Source: Knoellia sp. p5-6-4 (GTDB lineage Bacteria > Actinomycetota > Actinomycetes > Actinomycetales > Dermatophilaceae). Taken from it: a stretch of 64,000 nt of DNA. Below the pieces are notes generated by a model. It was given only the letters and a program-made list of their open reading frames with translations, had not been told where the DNA came from and searched no databases. Of the stretch, positions 1 to 14,076 are shown piece after piece; within the stretch, counting starts at the first letter, position 1, and the number at the start of each line of letters is the position of its first letter. A program made the translations under genes and the position numbers. Location: positions 678,437-742,436 of the forward strand of contig NZ_JARGZF010000001.1 in the NCBI RefSeq assembly GCF_029222705.1. The letters are read 5' to 3'.

Positions 1-208
1 AGCCGCCGCGGGCCCCCCTCGTGCTCACCACCAGCCCCGCCCGACGCAGGTCCGAGACGATCGCCTCGAGGAACTTGCGGGGCAGGTCCTGGCGGGTCGC
101 GAGGCTCTCGACGCTCACCGGGCCCGCCCGGGTCAGCGACGCCTCGGCGAGGGTCAGCATCGCCCTGATCGCATATTCGGTGCGCGCCGAGATGTCCACG
201 GCACGCAT
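1..208 (-). CDS. Rrf2-family transcriptional regulator (partial, N-terminal part)
   Basis: The gene runs off the left edge; about 69 N-terminal residues are visible, starting with ATG at 208. The start MRAVDISARTEYAIRAML is the typical opening of Rrf2-family regulators, and a winged-helix segment follows (VSVESLATRQDLPRKFLEAI, then LRRAGLVVSTRGARGG). The cysteine-containing C-terminal region that would separate CymR-like from IscR-like members is outside the window. It sits 37 bp downstream of cysA on the same strand. Two matching palindromes lie in front of sbp (4061-4083) and the TauE/SafE gene (4258-4280), so I infer a CymR-like role in sulfur assimilation. Family is well supported; the target set is inference. 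Confidence 0.85.
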   Translation of the reverse strand, partial: MRAVDISARTEYAIRAMLTLAEASLTRAGPVSVESLATRQDLPRKFLEAIVSDLRRAGLVVSTRGARGG

Positions 209-245
209 TGTGGCGTACGAGGGCGCGGGACGTCGCCGCACCGGC

Positions 246-1256
246 CTACACAGCCAGCGTGCGACCCAGTTGCCTGCCTCGCTCGTCCTCGGCGGGCACA
301 CTGGCGTGCACGGTCTCCCCGGGTCGCAGGCCGAGGGCGTCACTCATGACCCGGGTGATCTGGGCGGCGAATCGCTCACCGTTGGCGTCGTCGACGAGGT
401 CGACCCGCACCTCGAAGCCCAACCGCACGATGCGCTCGACCGTGGCCCGCACCCGCGTCGGTGCCTGCTCCCCCGGCGAGAGCGCTGTCACGGTGGCCTC
501 ACGCTCGAGCCGGATGTCGTGCGGGCGCACCATGGTGCCGCCCAGGTTGGCGACCGATCCGAGGAACGACATGACGAAGTCGTTTGCGGGCTGCTCGTAC
601 AGCTCGTCGGGGGTGCCCACCTGCTCGATGCGGCCCGCGTTCAGGACCGCGATGCGGTCCGACACGTCGAGCGCCTCCTCCTGGTCGTGGGTGACGAGCA
701 CCGTCGTCACGTGGACCTCGTCGTGCAGCCGACGCAGCCACCGACGCAGGTCGGCTCGCACCTTCGCGTCGAGCGCGCCGAACGGCTCGTCGAGCAGGAG
801 CACGCCGGGATCGACCGCAAGGGCCCGGGCCAGCGCCATCCGCTGGCGCTGCCCGCCGGACAGCTGGGCCGGGTAGCGGTGCTGGAACCCGGCGAGGCCG
901 ACGATCTCGAGCAGCTCGTCGACCTTCCTGTCGATCTCCTTCTTCGGCCGCTTGCGAATGGTCAGCCCGAAGGCGACGTTGTCGCGAACGGACATGTGCT
1001 TGAAGGCCGCGTAGTGCTGGAAGACGAAGCCGATCCCCCGCTTCTGCGGCGGGACGAGGGTGACGTCCTGCCCGTCGATCACGACCTGGCCCGAGTCGAG
1101 GGCCTCCAGGCCGGCGATCGAACGCAACAGCGTCGACTTGCCCGACCCGCTCGGGCCCAGAAGGGCGGTCAGCGAGCCCGCGGGGATGTCGAGGCTCACG
1201 TCGTCGAGGGCGGCGAAGCTGCCGTAGTTCTTCCGGGCGCCGGTGACAGTGATCAT
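246..1256 (-). CDS. cysA: Sulfate/thiosulfate ABC transporter ATP-binding protein CysA
   Basis: ATPase subunit that powers sulfate or thiosulfate import through CysT/CysW at the inner face of the membrane. The 336-aa protein has Walker [10 protein letters not shown] (34-42), a Q-loop near 80, the LSGGQ signature (132-136), Walker B LLLDEP (153-158) followed by FGALD, the switch histidine in [16 protein letters not shown], and a C-terminal TOBE-like regulatory part from about 240. The length is typical of CysA. The ATG at 1256 is chosen because it overlaps the cysW stop as ATGA, implying translational coupling; a longer frame upstream runs into cysW and is not coding. Last gene of sbp-cysT-cysW-cysA. 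Confidence 0.95.
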
Positions 1257-2059
1257 GAGGTGCTCCTCTTCCGGTCGAGCAGGGTCATTCCGAGCAGGGT
1301 CACCAGCGCAAGGCCCATGAGCACGGTTGCGGCGGCGTAGGCCCCGAAGGTGTTGTGGTCGTCGATGTAGCGCGAGTGCACGAGCAGGGTCAGCGTCTGC
1401 GAGACGCCGGGGAAGCCGGAGGACACCATGATCACGGCGCCGAACTCCCCCAGCGCCCGCGCGATGGTGAGGACCACCCCGTAGGTGAGGCCCCATCGGA
1501 TGGCCGGCAGCGTGATCCGCCAGAAGGTCTGCCGGGCGGAGGCGCCGAGCGTTGCGGCGGCCTGCTCCTGGTCGGTGCCGATCTCGTGCAGCACCGGCTC
1601 GACCTCCCGCACGACGAAGGGAAGCGTCACGAAGATGGTCGCGATCACCATGCCGGGGATGCCGAAGATGACCCGGAGACCGGTGGACTCCAGGCCCCCG
1701 AACCACCCGTGGACCCCCCACAGCATGATCAGCGAGACGCCGACCACGATGGGCGAGACGGCGAACGGCAGGTCCACCACGGCCTGTATCAGGCCCCGGC
1801 CGGGAAACCGCCAGCGCACGAGCGCGATGGCGGTGACGACGCCGAACACGACATTGAGCGGGACGACGATGGCCACGATGAGCAGCGACAGGTTCAGCGC
1901 CGAGATGGCCGCAGGGGTGCGCACCGACTCGAGGAACGGCATCAGCCCGTCGCCGAAGGCGCGCCAGAGGATCACCGCGATGGGCACGGCGACCAGGCCG
2001 AACAGGTACCCCAGGGCGATGGTGCGCAGGGTGAGCTGGGCGGTGCGGGAGGTCCTCAT
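1253..2059 (-). CDS. cysW: Sulfate ABC transporter permease CysW
   Basis: Inner-membrane permease subunit, 268 aa, that pairs with CysT to form the sulfate channel. Six hydrophobic segments are visible, beginning with [20 protein letters not shown] near the N terminus. The ABC-permease EAA loop is present around residues 180-200 ([21 protein letters not shown]), where CysA docks. The start overlaps the cysT stop by four bases (ATGA) and the stop overlaps cysA the same way, so the three are probably made in fixed ratio. Assigned as CysW rather than CysT from gene order and sequence type; both belong to the same permease family. Confidence 0.93.
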
Positions 2060-2943
2060 TCGGCACTCTCCTCTCGCTGCTGGGCGCGGCTGATGTAGAG
2101 GCGCAGCAGGAACAGGGTCAGGAAGGCGATCGCGAGCAGCGCCACCGAGACGGCCGCGGCGTTGACCGGCCGGTCGATCTCGATCTGCTGCTGGATGTAC
2201 TGCGAGGCCACCTGGGTCTCCCGCGGGATGTTGCCGCCGATGAGGACGACCGAGCCGTACTCCCCGATCGCGCGGGCGAAGGCGAGCCCCGTGCCACTGA
2301 CGATGGCCGGCATCAGCGTCGGCAGCACCACCCGCCGGAACGTCGTCCAGTTGTCAGAACCCAGCGACGCCGCCGCTTCCTCCACCTCCCTGTCGGCCTC
2401 GATGAGCACGGGCTGGACGGAGCGCACCACGAACGGCAGCGTGACGAACGCGAGCGCCACCACCAGTCCTCCCTGGGTCGCGTTCAGGTGGATGTTCACC
2501 GGGCTGCTCGGGCCGTAGAGGGAGAGCAGCACGATGCTCGCGACGATCGTCGGCAGCGCGAACGGCAGGTCGATGAGGGCGTTGACGATGCGCTTGCCGG
2601 GGAAGTCGTCGCGGACCAGGACCCAGGCGATGAGCGTGCCCATCAGGGCGTTGACCAGGGCGACGACGACGGAGACGCCGACGGTCACGCGAAGGGAGGC
2701 CAGCGCCACCGGCGCCGTCACCGCCTCCCAGAAGCCGGCGAGCCCCTCCTCGAAGGACGCCACCGTCAGCGCGGCCAGCGGCAGCAGCACGATGAGGCTC
2801 AACCACAGGGACACCACGCCAACGCCGAGGGCCCGCCCCGCCCCGGGCCACCGGGCCCGGGACCAGGGCGAGGGAGCTGGCGGCAGGGACGCGGGGAGGG
2901 TGTGGGGGTGCGCGTCCCTGCCAACCAGGGTCTGGGTCGACAT
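2056..2943 (-). CDS. cysT: Sulfate ABC transporter permease CysT
   Basis: First permease subunit of the sulfate importer, 295 aa. A charged cytoplasmic N terminus of about 50 residues precedes the first membrane helix ([19 protein letters not shown]). The EAA loop follows the family pattern ([21 protein letters not shown]). I use ATG 2943, seven bases after the sbp stop, rather than an upstream start that would lie inside sbp. The stop overlaps the cysW start. Function rests on the family plus the complete sbp-cysT-cysW-cysA context. Confidence 0.93.
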
Positions 2944-2950
2944 CAGGGCC

Positions 2951-3994
2951 CTACCGGGTGGCCTCGTCGTAGATGACGGCGATCGAGCCGACATCCTTCT
3001 TGAACAGCGAGTCGTTCACGGCCTTCCAGCCCCCGAGGTCCTCGATGGTCCACAGCCGCTGCGGCTCGGGGAAGTCCTTCGCGAACTCCTGGGCGACCGA
3101 GGCGTCGACGGGGCGGAAGCCCGCCTCGGCCCACAGCCGCTGGGCCTCGGGCGTGTAGAGGAAGTCGTTGAAGGCCTTGGCCTTGGCTGCGTTGGGGCTC
3201 TTGCCCAGCACCGCCACCGGGTTCTCGATCTTGAAGGTCTGCGGTGGCGTGACGTGCTGGACCGGGTCGCCACCGCGTTCGATGAACAGCGCCTCGTTCT
3301 CGTAGCTGAGCAGGACGTCGCCGCTGCCCTGGAGGAAGGCCTCGGTCGCCTCGCGGCCCGACTTCGGCTGGATCTTGACGTGGTCCTGCACGAGCGACGA
3401 GATGTAGGCCAGGCCCGCCTTGGCGTCCTTCCCGCCCGCGCTCTTCGCGGCATACGGGGCCAGGAGGTTCCACTTCGCCGAGCCCGAGCTGAACGGGTTG
3501 GGCGTCACGACCTCGATGCCGGGCTTGAGCAGGTCGTCCCAGTCCTCGATGCCCTCGGGGTTGCCCTTGCGGACGACGATGGTGACGACGGAGCCGAACG
3601 GGATGCCCTTGTGCTCCCCGGCGTTCCAGGCCTTGTCGACGAGCCCGGCGTCGACCAGGCGGGTGACGTCCGGCTCGACGGAGAAGTTGACGATGTCGGC
3701 GGCCGCGCCCGCCTCGACCTTGCGCGACTGGTCGCCCGAGGCGCCGTAGGACTGCTGGAAGGCCACACCCCTGCCCGCCTCGGTCGCGTTGAACGCGGGG
3801 ATGACCTTGTCGAAGCCGACCTTGGGGACGGCGTACGCATAGAGGTTGATGGTGCCCCCGCTGCCCTGGGCGGCTGCCGGGCCGCTCCGTGCTGCGGCGA
3901 CCGTGTCGGCGGACCCGCCTCCGGCGCAGGCGGACAGCGCGAGGGCGGAGGCGGCAAAGATGCCGCCCAGCGCTACGGCTGGTGTGCGTTGCAT
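2951..3994 (-). CDS. sbp: Sulfate-binding lipoprotein Sbp
   Basis: Extracellular sulfate-binding protein that hands substrate to CysT/CysW. The 347-aa protein has a short signal peptide ending in the lipobox LSAC, so it should be lipid-anchored as expected in a Gram-positive. Family hallmarks are visible: NLYAYAVPKVGFDKVIPAF, a QSYGASGDQSRKV segment contacting the anion, and NPFSSGSAKWN. ATG at 3994 is preceded by a good ribosome site (GGGAGA, about 5 nt away). It is the first gene of the operon. The palindrome at 4061-4083, 67 bp upstream, probably controls it. Confidence 0.93.
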   Translation of the reverse strand: MQRTPAVALGGIFAASALALSACAGGGSADTVAAARSGPAAAQGSGGTINLYAYAVPKVGFDKVIPAFNATEAGRGVAFQQSYGASGDQSRKVEAGAAADIVNFSVEPDVTRLVDAGLVDKAWNAGEHKGIPFGSVVTIVVRKGNPEGIEDWDDLLKPGIEVVTPNPFSSGSAKWNLLAPYAAKSAGGKDAKAGLAYISSLVQDHVKIQPKSGREATEAFLQGSGDVLLSYENEALFIERGGDPVQHVTPPQTFKIENPVAVLGKSPNAAKAKAFNDFLYTPEAQRLWAEAGFRPVDASVAQEFAKDFPEPQRLWTIEDLGGWKAVNDSLFKKDVGSIAVIYDEATR

Positions 3995-4060
3995 GTGATC
4001 TCCCTGGTGCCCCTCGTCGGGGAGAAGCCAAGACGGCCCGAGACTTCCTCGTCTCCCCCT

Positions 4061-4083
4061 AGTCCTATATGACAAGTAGGAGT
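4061..4083. promoter_or_regulatory. Candidate Rrf2/CymR-type operator upstream of sbp
   Basis: Imperfect palindrome with arms AGTCCTATA and AGTAGGAGT separated by 5 bases. It matches the perfect palindrome at 4258-4280 in both half-sites and spacer length, with three changes. It lies upstream of the sbp operon and probably overlaps its promoter. Assignment to the Rrf2 regulator at the window edge is inference from proximity and symmetry. Confidence 0.6.
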
Positions 4084-4257
4084 TTCTTCGCCCATGCGGC
4101 CGGGGGTCAACCACCCACCCGGGCCATCTCGAATGCTGGCTGACCAGAACGCTTGCAGGATGAGGCCTTCCCACCTCGGCACTAGGCAGCACCTCCGTCG
4201 TACTCAGCATGCGAGATACGGCCGACGGTGGATTGCCCCCACGCATTTCGTCGCCAT

Positions 4258-4280
4258 ACTCCTATAAGACCTATAGGAGT
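4258..4280. promoter_or_regulatory. Candidate Rrf2/CymR-type operator upstream of the TauE/SafE gene
   Basis: Perfect inverted repeat: ACTCCTATA and TATAGGAGT separated by 5 bases, ending 38 bp before the permease start. It is AT-rich in a very GC-rich setting. Its near-twin lies in front of the sbp operon on the other side of the same 324-bp intergenic region. I infer a shared repressor, most simply the Rrf2 protein encoded at 1-208. Confidence 0.65.
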
Positions 4281-4318
4281 AGTGGCGCCTTGTGTGGCCG
4301 CCAACGAGGGGAGTTCTG

Positions 4319-5245
4319 ATGCGCAAGCTGATCTTGCTCGCGATCGTGGGCCTTGGTGCCCAGCTGGTCGACGGCAGCCTGGGGATGGCCTACGGCGTGA
4401 CGTCCTCCACCCTGCTGTTGGCGGTGGGCACCAGCCCGGCTGCGGCCTCGGCCACCGTGCACCTCGCGGAGATCGGCACCACGCTCGTCTCGGGCGCCGC
4501 GCACTGGAAGTTCGGCAACGTCGACTGGCGGGTGGTCCTCAAGATCGGCATCCCGGGGGCTGTGGGGGCCTTCGCCGGCGCGACCTTCCTCTCCCACCTC
4601 GACACCTCGGTCGGCAAGCCTGTGATGTCGCTGATCCTGCTCGCCCTGGGCCTCTACGTCCTGGGTCGGTTCACCGTCCGGGGGCTGCGCCAGGACCGTC
4701 TCGGCACGCCGCTGCGGGCCCGCTTCCTGGGCCCCCTCGGGCTCTTCGCCGGATTCGTCGACGCCACCGGGGGCGGCGGCTGGGGCCCGGTGGGCACACC
4801 CGCGATCCTGGCCAGCGGTCGCCTCGAGCCCCGCAAGACGATCGGGTCCATCGACACCAGCGAGTTCCTCGTGTCCGTCGCCGCCAGCATCGGCTTCCTG
4901 TTGGCCCTCGGCACCGCAGGCGTCAACGCCGCCTGGGCCCTGGCCCTGCTTGCCGGAGGCATGGTGGCGGCACCCATCGCCGCGTGGCTCGTGCGCCACG
5001 TCCCGCCTCGGGTCCTCGGTTCGCTCGTCGGCGGGCTGATCATCCTCACCAACGCACGGACGCTGCTGCTCAGCGACTGGCTGGACGCCGGCACGAGCAC
5101 CAGGTACCTGGTGTACGCGCTCATCTGGGCGATGTGGATCGGTGCGGTGACCTACTCCGTGCGCGCCTACCGGGCGGAGCGCGCCCAGTCCCCCGCACCC
5201 GCCCTCGCGAGCGACGGACGGGTCGCTGTGGCCGACCCCGTCTGA
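4319..5245 (+). CDS. TauE/SafE-family sulfite or sulfonate permease
   Basis: Polytopic inner-membrane protein of 308 aa with about eight hydrophobic segments. The repeated family motif is seen near both halves: GAQLVDGSLGMAYGVTSST at the N terminus and GGGGWGPVGTPAIL near residue 160. TauE/SafE proteins move sulfite, sulfoacetate or related organosulfur anions, usually outward; the substrate here cannot be read from sequence. ATG 4319 is chosen for its strong ribosome site (GAGGGGAG, 7 nt upstream) rather than an ATG 27 bp earlier. It is divergent from the sulfate uptake operon and shares a putative operator type, which supports a sulfur role. Confidence 0.88.
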   Translation: MRKLILLAIVGLGAQLVDGSLGMAYGVTSSTLLLAVGTSPAAASATVHLAEIGTTLVSGAAHWKFGNVDWRVVLKIGIPGAVGAFAGATFLSHLDTSVGKPVMSLILLALGLYVLGRFTVRGLRQDRLGTPLRARFLGPLGLFAGFVDATGGGGWGPVGTPAILASGRLEPRKTIGSIDTSEFLVSVAASIGFLLALGTAGVNAAWALALLAGGMVAAPIAAWLVRHVPPRVLGSLVGGLIILTNARTLLLSDWLDAGTSTRYLVYALIWAMWIGAVTYSVRAYRAERAQSPAPALASDGRVAVADPV

Positions 5246-5258
5246 TCCCGGGCCGGGC

Positions 5259-6359
5259 TCAGCCCCGGACGGGCCGGCCGCGCAGCACGACCAGCTCGGG
5301 GTGGGCCAGGACGCCGACGTCGTCACGGGGGTCCGCCCCGTAGACCACGAGGTCGGCGTCCGCACCCTCCTCCAGCCCCGGGCGGCCCAGCCACTCCCGC
5401 GCCCCCCACACCCCGGCCCGCAGGGCCTCGACGGGCGTGAGCCCGGCGGCCACCAGCTCGGCGGCCTCCTGCGCCACGAGCCCGTGAGGCAGCGAGCCAC
5501 CCGCGTCGGTGCCGACGTAGACGGGGATGCCCGCCTCGTGGGCGGCGCGGACGGTCTCGTGGCGACGTTCGTGCAGGGCCAGCATGTGCCGGTGGTAGGC
5601 GGGGAACTTCTCGCGGGCCGCCTCCGCGATCGCCGGGAAGGTGGCGATGTTGACCAGCGTCGGCACGATGGCGATGCCCTGGGCGGCAAACTGCTCGATG
5701 GTCGCCGGCTCGAGACCGGTGGCGTGCTCGATGCAGTCGGTGCCGGCCGCGGCGAAGTCGTAGAGCGAGGCCTCCCCGAAGCAGTGGGCCGTCACCCGCG
5801 CCCCCTCCTCGTGGGCGGCCGCGATGGCGTCCTTGAGCACGTCCGCCGGCCAGCAGGGGGTCAGGTCGCCGACCTCGCGGTCGATCCAGTCGCCCACCAG
5901 CTTGACCCAGCCGTCACCGGCCCGGGCCTCGATCCGCACCCGCTCGACGAGCTGTTCCGGCTCGATCTCGTGGGCGTAGTTGCGGATGTACCGGCGGGTG
6001 CGCGCGATGTGCCTGCCGGCGCGGATGACCTTCGGAAGGTCGTCCCGCTCGTCGATCCAGCGGGTGTCCGACGGGGACCCGGCGTCGCGGATCAGCAGCG
6101 TGCCGGCCGCGCGGTCACCGAGCGCCTGCTGTTCTGCGGTCTCGCGGTCGACGGCGCCGTGGGCGTCGAGCCCCACGTGGCAATGGGCGTCGACGAGGCC
6201 GGGCAGCACCCACCCGCGCACGGTCTGCACGTCGCCACCGGCGGCGGCGGGCCGGTCGAACGTCACCGTGCCGCCCACCACCCAGGCCTCGGCTCGTACG
6301 TCGTCCGGTCCGACCAGGACCGGTCCCTTGAGGTGCAGCACCGTCGCCGTCGCCGTCAT
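5259..6359 (-). CDS. Metal-dependent amidohydrolase
   Basis: A 366-aa hydrolase of the amidohydrolase superfamily (imidazolonepropionase/prolidase-like branch). Metal ligands are visible in order: DAHCHVGLDAHG near residue 58, VTAHCF near 190, IEHATGLE near 210 and GTDAGGSLPHG near 285, which carries the catalytic Asp. A short beta-rich N-terminal segment and the matching C-terminal strands (EGADADLVVYGADP) form the composite domain usual for the family. The substrate is unknown. It is convergent with the TauE/SafE gene (13 bp between stops). ATG 6359 fits a leaderless transcript from the TAGGGT box 7 nt upstream; a longer start 78 bp upstream has no support. Confidence 0.85.
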   Translation of the reverse strand: MTATATVLHLKGPVLVGPDDVRAEAWVVGGTVTFDRPAAAGGDVQTVRGWVLPGLVDAHCHVGLDAHGAVDRETAEQQALGDRAAGTLLIRDAGSPSDTRWIDERDDLPKVIRAGRHIARTRRYIRNYAHEIEPEQLVERVRIEARAGDGWVKLVGDWIDREVGDLTPCWPADVLKDAIAAAHEEGARVTAHCFGEASLYDFAAAGTDCIEHATGLEPATIEQFAAQGIAIVPTLVNIATFPAIAEAAREKFPAYHRHMLALHERRHETVRAAHEAGIPVYVGTDAGGSLPHGLVAQEAAELVAAGLTPVEALRAGVWGAREWLGRPGLEEGADADLVVYGADPRDDVGVLAHPELVVLRGRPVRG

Positions 6360-6366
6360 GTCCGCG

Positions 6367-6372
6367 ACCCTA
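6367..6372 (-). promoter_or_regulatory. Minus-10 box (TAGGGT) for a leaderless amidohydrolase mRNA
   Basis: TAGGGT on the minus strand ends 7 nt before the ATG at 6359, which places the transcription start at or beside the start codon. No Shine-Dalgarno sequence precedes the gene. A clear -35 is not seen. Confidence 0.45.
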
Positions 6373-6670
6373 CCGAGCCCCACTCCCGCCAGCCCATGGC
6401 GGCGCGGCCAGATACCCGTGTCACGCATAACCGGCAACTCGGGTCGAACAGCCGGAGAAGCGGACCGAACGCCTCAGGAGAACGGGCCACGGCAGATCGG
6501 CCAACTACCCCCAATGCGAAAGCCACCATAGGCATCCACACACGAACTCATTAGCGTGCCAGAGATCGCAGTCCTGCCCACGGGACAGTGATCGAGGGGG
6601 TCCAAAAGGGGGGACTCTCGCGCAAACCGCCAGATACAACCGCCGCGGCACGGTGCCCGGCGGACATCCA
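6373..6670. other. Divergent intergenic region, about 300 bp
   Basis: Region between the leftward amidohydrolase and the rightward secreted protein. It is less GC-rich than its surroundings and has no reading frame with coding character on either strand. It must hold the promoter of the secreted protein, but I cannot pick one with confidence. No clear inverted repeats or RNA element were seen. Confidence 0.5.
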
Positions 6671-6682
6671 GGGAGGGTCATT

Positions 6683-7336
6683 GTGCGTCTCGCTTCCAAA
6701 CTGACCGCGTTCGGCACCGCACTCGCCGCAGCGCTCATCGCCACACCCGCTGCCTCGGGCGCGCCCGAGGGCGGCCCCGGCAACGGAGCGCCCAGCGGCG
6801 CTCACTACACGCTCAACGTCATCGGCGTCGAGAACGCCAAGACTGCGTCGATGGACGGCACCAACCGCCACACCATCTTCGTGCCGAACCAGGGCAGCTG
6901 CCGCATCAACCTCGGCGAGGGCGACTACGGCGTGGGTGACGGCAACTGCTTCGACGGCGACGGGGCCCAGTTCACGCTGCCCGACCCAGACCCCGACGGC
7001 GACGGCGTGACGGCCTACAGCGTCTACGCCCGCGCCCTCGGCAAGCCGGGAGGCTCGTCGGTGACCACGACCTGCTTCGACGAGGACGGCGAGACCTATT
7101 GCTCCACGGAGAACATGGTCCTGGTGCGCAGCACCGGCAAGTCGCGGTTCAGCAACGTCTCGAAGGAGCTGCTCTCGCTCTGCCTCGACACCGACGGCGA
7201 CATGGTCTGCGACACCCGTGAGTTCCTGTTCGACCGTGACCTCGCGGACTACTTCTGGTCCTACGACAACGCCGGCCTGAAGGTCGCCCAGCTGCGCTTC
7301 TACGAGGTCCCGACGAACGTCGGCACCACACCCTGA
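6683..7336 (+). CDS. Secreted protein with Asp-rich, calcium-binding-like motifs
   Basis: Not recognised as a named family. The 217-aa product begins with a clear Sec signal peptide (RLASKLTAFGTALAAALIA, likely cleavage after PAASGA). GTG 6683 is chosen because GGGAGGG lies just upstream and the signal peptide then starts directly; an earlier in-frame start would add an unlikely leader. The mature part has four or more Cys residues, a DPDPDGDGVTAYSVYARALG segment and a DTDGDMVCDTREF segment. Both resemble short DxDxDG calcium loops of EF-hand or excalibur type. It stands alone, followed by a strong terminator at 7361. A cell-wall or extracellular role is plausible but unproven. Confidence 0.75.
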   Translation: MRLASKLTAFGTALAAALIATPAASGAPEGGPGNGAPSGAHYTLNVIGVENAKTASMDGTNRHTIFVPNQGSCRINLGEGDYGVGDGNCFDGDGAQFTLPDPDPDGDGVTAYSVYARALGKPGGSSVTTTCFDEDGETYCSTENMVLVRSTGKSRFSNVSKELLSLCLDTDGDMVCDTREFLFDRDLADYFWSYDNAGLKVAQLRFYEVPTNVGTTP

Positions 7337-7360
7337 CCTCGTAGGAGAACCGATAGGGAG

Positions 7361-7402
7361 GTCACTGAGGCCCCCGCCCGTGCCGGGCGGGGGCCTCGGT
7401 GA
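7361..7402 (+). terminator. Intrinsic terminator after the secreted protein
   Basis: Near-perfect 20-bp stem (GTCACTGAGGCCCCCGCCCG with one G-T pair to its partner) and a 3-nt loop, 25 bp after the stop codon. No strong T tract follows. It could act in both directions, as the next gene is convergent. Confidence 0.75.
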
Positions 7403-7450
7403 CCCCCTCCAGAGGAGCCTCGATGTCCGCTCCGGCACCGCGCAGGCCGG

Positions 7451-8080
7451 TCAGGCGCCCACGCCGCCGTCGTCCTGCAGCCGCTGCCCGAGCGCGGCGA
7501 GCGGGTCCTGCCGCCGGGTGCGGGTCTCCAGGGCGATGCCCCAGCGCACGAAGGCCCCGCGCTCGACGGGGAAGGGCCCCGCGAGGCCGTCGGCCCGGCG
7601 CAGGGCCTCGGCGGCCAGCAGCGTCGCCTGGGCGGGCACGTAACGCAGCTCGACGACCAGGCGCCACGCCTCGACAGGCTCCTGGGCGTGCCAGGGCAGC
7701 ATCGCCACCAGCCCGTCGAGCAGCGTGACCACGCGTCCGACGTCGTGCGTGGCTGCCCTCGCCACCAGCCCGTCGAGGTAGGGCTCCCAGCCGCCCGGTC
7801 CGGCAGGATCCGGCCGCCGGGTGATGCTCTCCAGGCCGGTCAGGACGTCGTCAGGGGCGCCCCGGTCGCGTGCCCGCTCGAGGAGCAGCGGGCCCAGACC
7901 GCTCTCCTCGTCGTCGTCGTGGAGCACCGCCACCATCTGGTGCACCGGCCCGTAGCCGGCCGCCTCCGCCAGCCGCCGCACGGCACGCTGGCGCTCGCCA
8001 CCGCGACGCCGACCGGCTTCGACGACCCCCCGGTGCGCGCTGTCGGCCAGCGCGATTGCCTCGTCGAGTGTGAACCCCAC
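7451..8080 (-). CDS. Hypothetical helical protein
   Basis: A 209-aa soluble protein that I do not recognise. It is rich in Ala, Arg and Leu with regular helical spacing, and has no signal peptide, membrane segment or cysteine cluster. GTG 8080 is supported by a TAGCGT box ending 6 nt upstream, the arrangement expected for a leaderless mRNA. The gene lies alone between the secreted-protein terminator and a set of hairpins downstream of ffh. GC-rich third codon positions argue that it is really coding. It may be an HEAT-like helical repeat protein, but that is a guess from composition. Confidence 0.65.
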   Translation of the reverse strand: MGFTLDEAIALADSAHRGVVEAGRRRGGERQRAVRRLAEAAGYGPVHQMVAVLHDDDEESGLGPLLLERARDRGAPDDVLTGLESITRRPDPAGPGGWEPYLDGLVARAATHDVGRVVTLLDGLVAMLPWHAQEPVEAWRLVVELRYVPAQATLLAAEALRRADGLAGPFPVERGAFVRWGIALETRTRRQDPLAALGQRLQDDGGVGA

Positions 8081-8086
8081 GCGCCG

Positions 8087-8092
8087 ACGCTA
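8087..8092 (-). promoter_or_regulatory. Minus-10 box (TAGCGT) for a leaderless hypothetical gene
   Basis: TAGCGT on the minus strand ends 6 nt before GTG 8080. No ribosome site is present, so a leaderless transcript is likely. Confidence 0.45.
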
Positions 8093-8193
8093 GGACCGAT
8101 CCGCTCCCCTCGCGAGCAGCACCGGGCGATCGGTCCGAACGGCTGAGCCGGTCCGTCCCGTTGAACCCGTTTTGTCAGCGCCCCCCACCCGCT

Positions 8194-8287
8194 GACCGTT
8201 TATCGGGTGACCCGATGAGCGGTCACTTCACCCGAGGTGCCACCTGGGGTGAAGCGCACCTTTGTCGGGTGACCCGATAAAGGTGCG
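8194..8287. repeat. Three back-to-back hairpins downstream of ffh
   Basis: Three stem-loops touch end to end: 8194-8224 (14-bp stem with two G-T pairs, TGA loop), 8226-8254 (about 13 bp, one mismatch) and 8255-8287 (15-bp stem with one G-T pair, TGA loop). The first and third share the core TCGGGTGACCCGA. A smaller stem (GTCAGCG/CGCTGAC, 8174-8196) abuts the first. They begin 9 bp after the ffh stop, so at least one is probably its terminator. Three in a row is more than a terminator needs. Confidence 0.75.
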
Positions 8288-8296
8288 GGGTCGCGG

Positions 8297-9910
8297 TCAG
8301 CGGCCGAGGAACTTCTCGAAGCCCTTCGGCAGGTTCGCGGGGTCGAGGTCCGGTATGCCGCCGTCCCCGTCACCGGGGCCGCCGGCACCGAAGGCTCCGC
8401 CACCGGAGGTCCGGGCTGCCTTGGCCTTCTCCGCGGCAGCCCTCTCCTCGGCCGCGCGCTTGGCGGGGTTGCCGGACTTGGACTTCTTGCGCTGCGGCTG
8501 CTGCTTGCCCTTGCGGCCGCCGCCACCCATGCCGGGGATGCCCGGCATACCCGGGATGCCGCCGCCGCGGGCGAGCTGCTTCATCATCTTCTGCGCCTCG
8601 GTGAACCGCTCGAGCAGCGCGTTGACCTCTGAGACCTGCACGCCCGAGCCCTTGGCGATGCGGGCGCGGCGCGAGCCGTCGATCTGCTTGGGGTGCGTGC
8701 GCTCGAACGGCGTCATGGAGCGCACCATGGCCTCGACCCGGTCGAACTCGCGCTCGTCGAGGTTGTCGAGCTGGGCGCGCATCTGGCCCATGCCCGGCAT
8801 CATCCCGAGCATCGACTTCAGCGACCCCATCTTCTTGATGGCGGCCATCTGGCTGAGGAAGTCGTCGAACGTGAAGTCCTCCTCGGCGAGGAACTTCCGC
8901 TGCATCTCGGCCGCCTGGGCGCGGTCGAACGCCTTCTCGGCCTGCTCGATGAGGGTGAGCACGTCACCCATGTCGAGGATGCGTGAGGCCATCCGGTCGG
9001 GGTGGAAGACCTCGAAGTCCTTCACGCCCTCGCCGACCGAGGAGAACATGATCGGTCGCCCGGTGACCGAGGCCACCGACAGGGCGGCACCACCGCGGGC
9101 GTCACCGTCGAGCTTGGAGAGCACGACACCGGTGAAGTCGACGCCCTCCTGGAAGGCCTGGGCCGTCTCGACCGCGGCCTGGCCGATCATCGCGTCGATG
9201 ACGAAGAGCACCTCGTCGGGCGCGATCGCGGTGCGGATGTCCGCGGCCTGCTGCATGAGGTTGGCGTCGACGGCCAGGCGACCGGCGGTGTCGACGATGA
9301 CCACGTCGTGCTGGCGGGCCCGTGCCTGCTCGATGCCCTGGCGCGAGACGGCGACCGGGTCACCGAAGGACCGCGTGCCCTCGCCGGACTCGAGCACGGC
9401 GTCGTGGCCGCCCATGTTGCCGCGCTCGGGCGCGTAGACCGGCAGGCCGGCGCGCTCCCCCACGACCTCGAGCTGGGTGACCGCGTTCGGGCGCTGGAGG
9501 TCGGCGGCGACGAGCAGCGGCGTGTGGCCCTGCTCCTTCAGCCAGGCGCCGAGCTTGCCCGCGAACGTGGTCTTTCCCGAGCCCTGCAGACCGGCGAGCA
9601 TGATGACCGTCGGCGGCGTCTTGGCGAGCTGCAGCTGCCGCGTCTGGCCACCGAGGATGGCGATGAGCTCCTCGTTGACGATCTTGACGACCTGCTGCGC
9701 CGGGTTCAGCGCCTGCGACACCTCCGCCCCCAGCGCCCGCTCGCGGATGGCCGAGGTGAACTGCTTCACCACGGGCAGCGCGACGTCGGCGTCGAGCAGC
9801 GCGAGCCGGATGTCCCGGATCGTGGCGTTGATGTCGGACTCGGTGAGCCGCCCCTTGTGCCGGAGGTTCTTGAAGGTGGCGGTCAGGCGGTCGGAAAGGC
9901 TGGCGAACAC
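8297..9910 (-). CDS. ffh: Signal recognition particle GTPase Ffh
   Basis: SRP54 homologue that binds signal sequences and 4.5S RNA and docks with FtsY (encoded at 15942-17162) to target proteins to the membrane. The 537-aa protein has the N domain (1-95), GTPase motifs GLQGSGKTT near 108, DTAGRLAVD near 190 and TKLDG-type SKLDGDARGG near 245, then the Met-rich M domain (MMPGMGQMRAQLDN, IDGSRRARIAKGSGV). A long Gly/Met/Lys-rich tail ends in FEKFLGR. GTG 9910 lies 7 nt after a TAGGCT box, consistent with a leaderless mRNA. The gene is monocistronic, ending in the hairpin cluster. Confidence 0.97.
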   Translation of the reverse strand: MFASLSDRLTATFKNLRHKGRLTESDINATIRDIRLALLDADVALPVVKQFTSAIRERALGAEVSQALNPAQQVVKIVNEELIAILGGQTRQLQLAKTPPTVIMLAGLQGSGKTTFAGKLGAWLKEQGHTPLLVAADLQRPNAVTQLEVVGERAGLPVYAPERGNMGGHDAVLESGEGTRSFGDPVAVSRQGIEQARARQHDVVIVDTAGRLAVDANLMQQAADIRTAIAPDEVLFVIDAMIGQAAVETAQAFQEGVDFTGVVLSKLDGDARGGAALSVASVTGRPIMFSSVGEGVKDFEVFHPDRMASRILDMGDVLTLIEQAEKAFDRAQAAEMQRKFLAEEDFTFDDFLSQMAAIKKMGSLKSMLGMMPGMGQMRAQLDNLDEREFDRVEAMVRSMTPFERTHPKQIDGSRRARIAKGSGVQVSEVNALLERFTEAQKMMKQLARGGGIPGMPGIPGMGGGGRKGKQQPQRKKSKSGNPAKRAAEERAAAEKAKAARTSGGGAFGAGGPGDGDGGIPDLDPANLPKGFEKFLGR

Positions 9911-9917
9911 GGGTCAC

Positions 9918-9923
9918 AGCCTA
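9918..9923 (-). promoter_or_regulatory. Minus-10 box (TAGGCT) for leaderless ffh mRNA
   Basis: TAGGCT on the minus strand ends 7 nt before the ffh GTG at 9910. There is no Shine-Dalgarno sequence in between. Confidence 0.5.
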
Positions 9924-9977
9924 ACCGCCACGGCGGGGCCGCTCTGACCACCAGCCCCTGCCCGTGACGGCGGTGGG

Positions 9978-12350
9978 CTACTCCGCACCGCCGTCACAGG
10001 TGTCGATGATCGCCGCCACCGTCTGCGCCACCTTGGCCGGCGAGAGCAGCCGGCCACCGAACTCGGTGAGGTAGAAGGTGTCGAGCGTCTGCCCGGCATA
10101 CGTGGCGATGTGCGCGGAGCGCACCGACAGCCCGGCCTTGGCGAAGGCGACCCCCAGCTCGTGCAGCAGCCCCGGGCGGTCCTGGGCCCGCACCTCGAGC
10201 ACCGTCGCCTCCTCCGACGCGTGCGGCACGACGAGGGCGCGGGCCTGCCCCGGCGCGCCCGACCCCGCCTGCGCGCTGGGCGGCCCGGCGAACTGGCGCC
10301 GGCGGTCGAGCAGCGACAGCGGTGCACGGTCACCCTGGGCGAGCCGCGCGAGCCCGCGCGCGATCCGCTCGGCGTCGGGGGCGTCGCCACCTGGGCACTC
10401 CACGTGCCACTCGTTGGCCGCCAGGCCGTCGAGGGTGCGCAGGATCGCCGTGCGCACCACCAGGCCGTATGCCGCGAGCAGGCCCGCGGTGTCAGCGAAC
10501 AGTCCCAGCCGGTCGCGGTCGAAGATGTCGATGCGGTAGGCGCCGCCCTGCGGGCGGACGACGACGCGCGGCTCCCCCGCAGCGACGGCCTGGAGGTCCT
10601 CGTCGGTGACCCGTGCCTCGCCGGCGGCCGCGACAGGTGCGTCGGCGTCCCACCCGGCACCCACCGCATCGGCGAGCTGGCGCAGCAGGGTGGCCCGCCA
10701 GTCCGTCCAGGCGAGCGGGCCGGCGGCACAGGCATCGGCCTCGGTCAGGGCGAGCAGCAGGTCGAACACGTCCTGCGAACCGCCCGCCGCGGCGCGTGCC
10801 GCTGCGGCCGTCCGCGGGTCCTGGTGGTCGCGGCGCGTGGCGAGCTCGATGAGGGTCAGGTGCTCGCGCACCAGGGTCGTCACGACCTCGACGTCCGAGG
10901 CCGGGTAGCCCATCCGGGTCGCGATGGCGGTGGCGACGGGCGCCCCTCCCGCCGAGTGGTCGTGCGCCCCGCGGACCTTGCCGATGTCGTGCAGGAGGGC
11001 GCCGAGCAGCAGCAGGTCGGCCCGCGCGACCCGGCGCACCAGCCCACCGGCGTGCACCACCGTCTCGATGAGGTGCCGGTCGACGGTGTGCCGGTGCACC
11101 GCGTTGCGCTGCGGCCGCGACCGCACCGCCGTCCACTCGGGCAGCCAGGCGTCGATGACGCCGGCCTGGTCCAGCCCCTCCCAGACCTGCACCAGCCCCG
11201 GCCCCGCGGACAGCAGGTCGGCGAAGAGGTCGCGGGCCGCCTCGGGCCACGGGTCGGCGAGCATCGGCGCGCTCCGCGCGAGGTTGGCCAGGGTGGTCGG
11301 CGCGATGGGCAGGCTGTGCCGCGCAGCGACCACCGCTGCCCGCAGCGGCACCAGGGGGTCGCTCGCGACCGCGCTGCGCGGCCCCAGGACGACCTCGCCG
11401 TCGTGCTCGAAGAGCCCGTAGCCGAGGGGGTTGAGGCGGGGTCTGCGCGGCCCCACGCGCAGGGTCCGGGCCCGTTGGGCCTGCCCGGCCCGCCGGACTG
11501 TGCCGTCGAGCGCATAGGCCACGGTGCGGGCCGCCGTGGAGACCGCGGTGAGCAGGTCGTCGGCGTCGCGGTGGCCCAGCAGCGCCGCCACGGCGTCGTG
11601 GTCCTCCCGGCTCAGCCGGTCGCGGCCGCGGCCGGTCACCACGTGCACCGCGTCGCGGACGTCGAGCAGCACCCGGTGCGCCTCGTCGACGTCGCCGTGC
11701 GGCCGGTCGGCCAGCCAGGCCTCGGCCAGCGCCCGCAGCACGGTCATGTCCCGCACACCCCCGCGGGCCTCCTTCAGGTCCGGCTCGAGCGACTGGGCGA
11801 GGTCACCGTGCCGGGCATGCCGCAGTCGCAGGCCGTCGACGAGCTGCGGAAGCCGCTTGCGGGCCGATGCGCGCCAGTCGTGGGCGATGACCGAGCGGGT
11901 CGAGGCGACCACGCCCGGGTCCCCGGCGATCCCGGCGAGGTCGAGCAGGCCGACGGCGGCGCTGAGGTCGCCGCCGGCGACGGTCCGGCACTGGTTGACG
12001 GTGCGCACGCTGTGGTCGAGCCGGATACCCGCGTCCCAGATGGGGTACCAGAGCCGGTCGGCCACCTCACCGACGTCCTCCCCGCCCAGGGACCGGCCGT
12101 TGTGCAGCAGCACGAGGTCGAGGTCGCTCAACGGCCCGGAGTCGCCGCGGGCGAGGCTGCCGACCGCGGCGAGGGCGATCCCCTCCTGCGGCCGGCCGGC
12201 CATGGCCTCGTCCCAGATGGAGACGAGCCACTCCCGCGTCAGCTCCCCCATGCCCTGCCGTCGCGCCGGACCGGCGCCCGGGGCGTCGAAGCCCCGGGCG
12301 CCGGCCAGGTCGAGACGCAGGGCCGCCAGCCCGCTCAGCCCAGTCGTCAT
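9978..12350 (-). CDS. glnD: PII nucleotidyltransferase / nucleotidyl-removing enzyme GlnD
   Basis: Bifunctional enzyme that modifies and demodifies the PII protein GlnK according to nitrogen status; in characterised Actinobacteria it adenylylates rather than uridylylates. The 790-aa product has the nucleotidyltransferase motif GSLARGDSGPLSDLDLVLL near residue 65, an HD phosphohydrolase motif (LLHDIGKVRGAHDHS) near 460, and two C-terminal ACT domains that sense glutamine. ATG 12350 starts 5 bp after glnK; no ribosome site is seen, so coupling to glnK is likely. Third gene of amtB-glnK-glnD, the usual actinobacterial order. Confidence 0.95.
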   Translation of the reverse strand: MTTGLSGLAALRLDLAGARGFDAPGAGPARRQGMGELTREWLVSIWDEAMAGRPQEGIALAAVGSLARGDSGPLSDLDLVLLHNGRSLGGEDVGEVADRLWYPIWDAGIRLDHSVRTVNQCRTVAGGDLSAAVGLLDLAGIAGDPGVVASTRSVIAHDWRASARKRLPQLVDGLRLRHARHGDLAQSLEPDLKEARGGVRDMTVLRALAEAWLADRPHGDVDEAHRVLLDVRDAVHVVTGRGRDRLSREDHDAVAALLGHRDADDLLTAVSTAARTVAYALDGTVRRAGQAQRARTLRVGPRRPRLNPLGYGLFEHDGEVVLGPRSAVASDPLVPLRAAVVAARHSLPIAPTTLANLARSAPMLADPWPEAARDLFADLLSAGPGLVQVWEGLDQAGVIDAWLPEWTAVRSRPQRNAVHRHTVDRHLIETVVHAGGLVRRVARADLLLLGALLHDIGKVRGAHDHSAGGAPVATAIATRMGYPASDVEVVTTLVREHLTLIELATRRDHQDPRTAAAARAAAGGSQDVFDLLLALTEADACAAGPLAWTDWRATLLRQLADAVGAGWDADAPVAAAGEARVTDEDLQAVAAGEPRVVVRPQGGAYRIDIFDRDRLGLFADTAGLLAAYGLVVRTAILRTLDGLAANEWHVECPGGDAPDAERIARGLARLAQGDRAPLSLLDRRRQFAGPPSAQAGSGAPGQARALVVPHASEEATVLEVRAQDRPGLLHELGVAFAKAGLSVRSAHIATYAGQTLDTFYLTEFGGRLLSPAKVAQTVAAIIDTCDGGAE

Positions 12351-12355
12351 ACGGC

Positions 12356-14076
<1,721 letters not shown>

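Follow-up and report, generated by a model that had tools for sequence, protein, structure and literature searches.

A candidate Rrf2 operator shared by a sulfate transporter operon and a divergent TauE/SafE permease gene in Knoellia sp. p5-6-4 and its relatives

Little is known of how environmental actinobacteria control their sulfur uptake. The closest described system is CymR of B. subtilis and S. aureus, a member of the Rrf2 family that works without an Fe–S cluster; it is described as repressing genes for cysteine synthesis and uptake and for sulfonates (PMC3828012) and as forming a complex with CysK (PMC3828012, PMC9338935), and the S. aureus protein is reported to sense oxidation by a surface cysteine (PMC9338935). 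For S. pneumoniae SifR and S. aureus HypR, the sequence TGTAA-N9-TTACA has been called the canonical Rrf2 operator (PMC9218516). Among actinobacteria, an Rrf2/CymR protein of Rhodococcus qingshengii, IGTS8_peg394, which was detected only in sulfate-starved culture, has been proposed as a global sulfur regulator, and the same source states that homologues of several known global regulators of sulfur metabolism are missing from its Rhodococcus strain (PMC8557817). CysZ of C. glutamicum, a member of the TauE/SafE (TSUP) permease family tied to sulfate assimilation, is described as a sulfate importer (PMC5840216). In the open-licence PMC literature, we found no published description of an Rrf2 operator at actinobacterial sulfate genes or of a CymR-like switch there, and the locus analysed here probably represents a new actinobacterial variant of Rrf2/CymR-type control.

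The window, a stretch of 64,000 nucleotides from Knoellia sp. p5-6-4 (G000), has near its start a sulfate ABC transporter operon on the minus strand, whose four adjoining components all score above their curated cut-offs. These are the sulfate-binding protein gene sbp (2951–3994, product P0002; TIGR00971, 169.4 bits vs 155.5), the permease subunit genes cysT (2056–2994; TIGR02139, 269.4 vs 246.1; its reading frame is drawn from the first start and the true start may lie further in) and cysW (1253–2059; TIGR02140, 329.9 vs 329.1), and the ATPase gene cysA (246–1256; TIGR00968, 399.9 vs 342.75). An earlier note on this DNA had placed a regulator directly downstream of cysA, which is borne out: rrf2 follows on the same strand after a gap of 37 bp, running from position 208 off the start of the window (5' part 1–208; full gene L003:7172-7645), and because of this short gap the sbp operon probably ends with rrf2. 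Upstream of sbp, a divergent region of 324 bp leads to tauE on the plus strand (4319–5245, product P0003), which encodes a TauE/SafE (TSUP) permease (PF01925, 144.1 bits vs a cut-off of 32.6) and is followed by an amidohydrolase gene on the minus strand. In this strain tauE is thus placed between sbp and the amidohydrolase gene; these two are direct neighbours in all three sbp stretches in which both were mapped (L155, L158, L269). In several relatives (L147, L155, L269, L270), a short-chain-dehydrogenase-like gene that we named by eye, sdr75, stands 3' of rrf2, and it remains in place where rrf2 is missing.

The rrf2 gene, called from its open reading frame and its Pfam match, encodes P0001, a protein of 157 residues with a full Rrf2 domain (PF02082, 116.8 bits vs 30; TIGR00738, 108.1 vs 73.3) and no cysteine. 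Among 81 distinct relatives of at least 60% identity, 71 are likewise free of cysteine and 10 contain a single one. The cluster-binding cysteines of Fe–S Rrf2 regulators (IscR, NsrR, RirA, RsrR) are absent from P0001, and the protein stays well under the cut-off of the IscR model (72.2 bits vs 207.55). CymR is its best specific NCBIfam model, at 93.2 bits and so less than half of the cut-off of 195 for the CymR equivalog NF047409; its PDB matches are led by 4cic, with the CymR structures 2y75 second and 3t8r fourth. P0001 may therefore work like CymR, to judge from these matches, but it is not filed as CymR. Because it has no cysteine, a direct Fe–S or thiol sensor is unlikely, and thiol sensing of the SifR/HypR type, like the surface-cysteine sensing of S. 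aureus CymR, is closed to it. IGTS8_peg394 is likened to P0001 by description only: that report shows neither operator nor target for it, and no sulfur genes stand beside its gene (PMC8557817).

In the divergent region we found two inverted repeats. The pattern ACTCCTATA-N5-TATAGGAGT, with up to three mismatches, matches the window at 4258–4280 on the plus strand (no mismatch), 38 bp from the tauE start at 4319, and at 4061–4083 (three mismatches), 66 bp from the sbp start at 3994; only the tauE copy has perfect 9-bp arms. These are the only two places for the dyad at this stringency in the 3.81-Mb genome, and neither 100 dinucleotide shuffles of the window nor the reversed control pattern in the whole genome gave a match. 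The positions and mismatch count given in the earlier note are correct. We take the two copies as candidate operators of tauE and of sbp-cysTWA-rrf2, the latter with its core TCCTA-N9-TAGGA on the minus strand. A wider scan of the same genome with AAMTCCTA-N9-TAGGA, allowing up to two mismatches, returned ten strand matches, four on the two operators and six elsewhere; one of the six, AAATCCGAGGCTCAACCTCGGA, recurs in other genomes and presumably lies in 16S rRNA. The scan near cys and met genes that had been suggested earlier brought up no site beyond the sbp and tauE copies, and the regulon therefore looks local here. As compared to CymR, the site is found at only two promoters in this genome.

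The conservation of the site was evaluated in 186 genomes of the same family. A strict 18-base pattern matched six of them, namely the genome itself, G140 with its match at sbp, G103 with one next to a sulfonate-type gene, and three in which no gene was assigned to the match (G012, G104, G120); since the reversed control matched more genomes than that, we switched to alignments anchored at sbp. In these, the sbp promoters of relatives have AAACTCCTA-N9-TAGGA in common, about 45–150 bp 5' of the gene, and the conserved form is TCCTA-N9-TAGGA, mostly preceded by AAAC, with nine inner bases that are not palindromic. A matrix built from 24 distinct sites was applied with leave-one-out to 45 promoters from the 46 genomes with sbp (a fragment in G024 and a second partial match in G040 were left out), and each score was compared with the best of 60 single-base shuffles of the promoter. 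The matrix beats the shuffles in 41 of the 45 promoters (G030, G033, G086 and G089 fail), and the sbp site at 4061–4083 scores 39.7 as compared to 5.0. The 41 include four genomes with no rrf2 match (G036, G072, G074, G101), and because G072 and G074 pass on other letters though their core is degraded, the core letters were counted as well.

By this count, the core stands with at least 8 of the 10 letters of TCCTA/TAGGA in 37 of the 39 sbp promoters of family genomes that bear rrf2, the exceptions being G086 and G033, whose sbp is distant (47% identical). The earlier note had named absence of the motif upstream of orthologous sbp operons as the result that would speak against it and had called for a check in relatives of the same gene order; with these 37 promoters, the motif turns out to be kept before sbp. 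In a scan of 14 genomes for AAMTCCTA-N9-TAGGA without mismatch, eight have it, always at sbp and nowhere else. Of the promoters scored for a –35-like hexamer, 32 of 38 at sbp and 18 of 36 at tauE have one 16–18 nt 5' of the site, which would place the site over the predicted –10 and start; the other half of the tauE promoters have none at that distance. TCCTA-N9-TAGGA has the same 5-N9-5 geometry as the SifR/HypR operator TGTAA-N9-TTACA (PMC9218516), with other half-site letters and other targets, and it also agrees with the 11-3-11 form described for the RsrR operator (PMC5015018). The site thus has an Rrf2-type operator form by either description, and its binding by Rrf2 is predicted.

There are 99 genomes with rrf2, 46 with sbp and 81 with tauE among the 186; by coordinates, rrf2 lies within 5 kb of sbp in 36 of the 46 sbp genomes, is elsewhere in three (G035, G085, G183) and has no match in seven (G024, G030, G036, G072, G074, G089, G101). 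For the core-letter count above and for the two tests that follow, rrf2 presence and linkage were labelled by hand from the lists of sbp and rrf2 matches. A matrix trained on sbp sites only was then applied to tauE promoters, which had no part in its training. There are 83 tauE matches, of which 66 with at least 69% identity were used and 17 at 48–59% were left out; the 66 promoters come from 65 genomes, as G136 has two copies. A score of at least 10 is reached in 46 of 51 rrf2-bearing cases (43 at 12, 41 at 14), while none of the 15 promoters without rrf2 reaches any of these scores, and the tauE site at 4258–4280 scores 27.4. Fisher's test gives p = 5.8e-11 at score 10, a value that ignores ancestry. 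On the tauE tree, six supported independent pairs differ in rrf2; four change in the same way, none in the opposite way and two show no difference (p = 0.125), so that the association corrected for ancestry is not significant alone and is suggestive only.

In some genomes, gene and site are missing together. G072 and G074 retain sbp-cysTWA and sdr75 and lack precisely the rrf2 that would stand between cysA and sdr75, and their aligned sbp sites have decayed; from G089, both rrf2 and the site are absent. The site is present with no rrf2 match in the draft genomes G036 and G101, whose contigs end 2.3 and 3.6 kb after sbp and so before or close to where rrf2 would be expected; in G100, a congener of G101, rrf2 starts 3.9 kb after sbp. 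In G006, G069 and G070, rrf2 is present and tauE has no site, and their rrf2 is unlinked to tauE and 59–66% identical. Among 57 further rrf2 stretches, mostly from genomes without sbp, tauE is found in 36, sulfate ABC genes in 5 and an NMT1-like (sulfonate-type) binding protein in 4, while 12 have none of sbp/cys, tauE or a sulfonate-type protein beside rrf2. By these comparisons the link of the dyads to the neighbouring rrf2 gene appears well supported, and the earlier claim that the Rrf2 regulator is linked to both operators is supported, in that site presence tracks rrf2, suggestively so after correction for ancestry.

Sites also occur before other genes of the family. In G149, which belongs to the same genus and has an unlinked rrf2, a dyad with all 10 core letters stands before cysI-cysH, which encode sulfite reductase and PAPS reductase (Pfam), while a dyad with 8 core letters stands before an unlinked tauE far from rrf2; these two sites score weakly (8.3 and 10.4). 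G147 has a two-mismatch site some 0.3 kb upstream of a gene for an FMN reductase, and G145 has a similar site for which no gene is named.

A second, unrelated box, ATAA-N6-GTTAT-N7-ATAA, read in relatives in the stretches L009–L038 and L277–L306, was seen by eye, without a count, in front of the majority of the 30 cysI genes viewed. It also stands before sbp and tauE in many relatives, where it overlaps the –35, and it is kept in G072, G074 and G089. With up to one mismatch, the box has 2–5 strand matches per genome in ten genomes, in which its reversed control has none, and the loci that we opened place it also before genes for DUF4395 proteins, family 3 (amino-acid) binding proteins, an ABC ATPase and a cysteine-dioxygenase-like protein. 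It is probably the site of an unnamed global sulfur regulator. In the genome of the window, the box is found at C2:131189-131214 (before cysI, L278), C2:630243-630268 (L394) and C1:1953299-1953324 (L403); it is kept at cysI, and the scan of this genome did not find it at sbp or tauE. Within about 4100–4245 of the window there are seemingly worn remains of the box (GCATTCGAGATGG, minus strand; GCATGCGAGATACGG, plus strand), as compared to GATGCGAGACATAA in relatives. Since both promoters seem to keep only such remains, control in this strain may have shifted entirely to the Rrf2 site.

We consider it likely that both inverted repeats are operators of the Rrf2 protein encoded behind cysA, which would repress the sbp operon and tauE when sulfur is plentiful. 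An Rrf2 dimer would sit on the core TCCTA-N9-TAGGA of 19 bp, covering about 25 bp in total, over –10/+1 of both the sbp-cysTWA-rrf2 operon and the divergent tauE, so that transcription would be blocked with sulfur in good supply; when sulfur runs short, Rrf2 would leave and both importers would be made. Lying at the end of the operon that its product controls, rrf2 would be expressed as well, presumably giving negative feedback. The sites, their positions, the gene order and the joint occurrence of regulator and operator come from computation; the binding, the repression rather than activation and the sulfur-related signal we infer. The signal more likely arrives via a metabolite or a partner protein, as CysK does for B. 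subtilis CymR.

It is very improbable that another transcription factor reads the dyad and that rrf2 is merely a neighbour. The second box in many of the same promoters argues that a further regulator acts there, and the three rrf2-bearing genomes whose tauE has no site, together with the non-significant test corrected for ancestry, would suit such a factor; however, in genomes without rrf2 (G072, G074, G089) the dyad has decayed and the second box has not, the G149 dyads are present though rrf2 is unlinked, and the geometry is that of known Rrf2 operators (PMC9218516). That the dyads are instead RNA hairpins of leader transcripts, acting by attenuation, seems exceedingly improbable: a dyad at the predicted start could fold as RNA, but the site goes with a neighbouring or unlinked regulator gene, its overlap with the predicted –10 would leave part of the dyad untranscribed, and Rfam has no match at the gathering cut-off in window positions 1–14000. 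If Rrf2 does bind, it might still answer a redox, nitrosative or iron signal, or activate instead of repressing, as described for many Rrf2 proteins (IscR, NsrR, RirA, RsrR; PMC5015018). This we regard as quite improbable, since P0001 and most of its relatives are free of cysteine, the genes with sites are those of sulfur transport and assimilation, and the site covers the predicted –10.

For tauE itself, the Pfam name and the exporter members of its family would favour a protein that exports sulfite or an organosulfonate and is co-regulated for detoxification. We find this unlikely: sbp and tauE occur together in only five genomes (G000, G035, G089, G156, G160) as compared to 20 expected from their frequencies of 46 and 81 in 186 (an expectation that ignores the relatedness of the genomes), and such rare co-occurrence suggests that tauE is an alternative sulfur importer. 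In G156 and G160 there are two rrf2 copies, one with each transporter. By coordinates, several genomes have tauE paralogues no more than a few kb away from cysI, which also speaks against export. C. glutamicum CysZ, a sulfate importer of the same family, makes import the better guess for tauE; the two are likened by family and not by sequence, and CysZ belongs to a sulfate reduction operon whereas tauE stands apart, beside sbp and rrf2 (PMC5840216). From its context, tauE is probably an importer of sulfate or another sulfur anion.

Beyond this locus, we put forward tentatively, and with less than even confidence, that the cysteine-free Rrf2 clade may be an actinobacterial plug-in sulfur repressor which follows whichever importer is present (sulfate ABC, TSUP or sulfonate-type) and acts in addition to a separate global regulator that reads the second box; the two promoters here would have lost the global box and rely on the Rrf2 site alone, and the TauE 'sulfite exporter' would be an interchangeable sulfate importer. 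The analysis gives a candidate regulator with its operator, a list of targets and natural cases of loss; it brings a second sulfur box to light alongside the Rrf2 site, and it argues for sulfate import by a permease whose annotation is that of a sulfite exporter.

Outside the family, there are 26 genomes with sbp, from which 16 promoters and 12 neighbourhoods were read. The rrf2 gene is directly behind cysA in 8 of these 12 stretches, and CTA-N9-TAG is found in 8 of the 16 sbp promoters (6/6 in family f10, 2/4 in f16 and 0/6 in f9); with at least 5 of 7 symmetric letters it is found in 4 of the 16 as compared to 0.06 on average for shuffled sequences. L085 and L086 have an Rrf2 of 67% identity, and here the two half sites have changed in parallel to CTCTA-N9-TAGAG, a symmetric change that fits the site of a dimer. 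Four of seven Micromonospora loci have a site 0.74–0.89 kb beyond rrf2, which in the one locus inspected (L192) stands before a flavin reductase gene. In L418 (G505, family f9), tauE, two consecutive rrf2 genes and sbp-cysTWA form one cluster with no CTA-N9-TAG at sbp, and another operator may be in use in this lineage. A different arrangement is seen within the family in G103 (L005, L343), where the match to rrf2 is split into two partial ones separated by some 43 kb; tauE is the neighbour of one and a sulfonate-type operon that of the other, which reflects either a rearrangement or an assembly problem.
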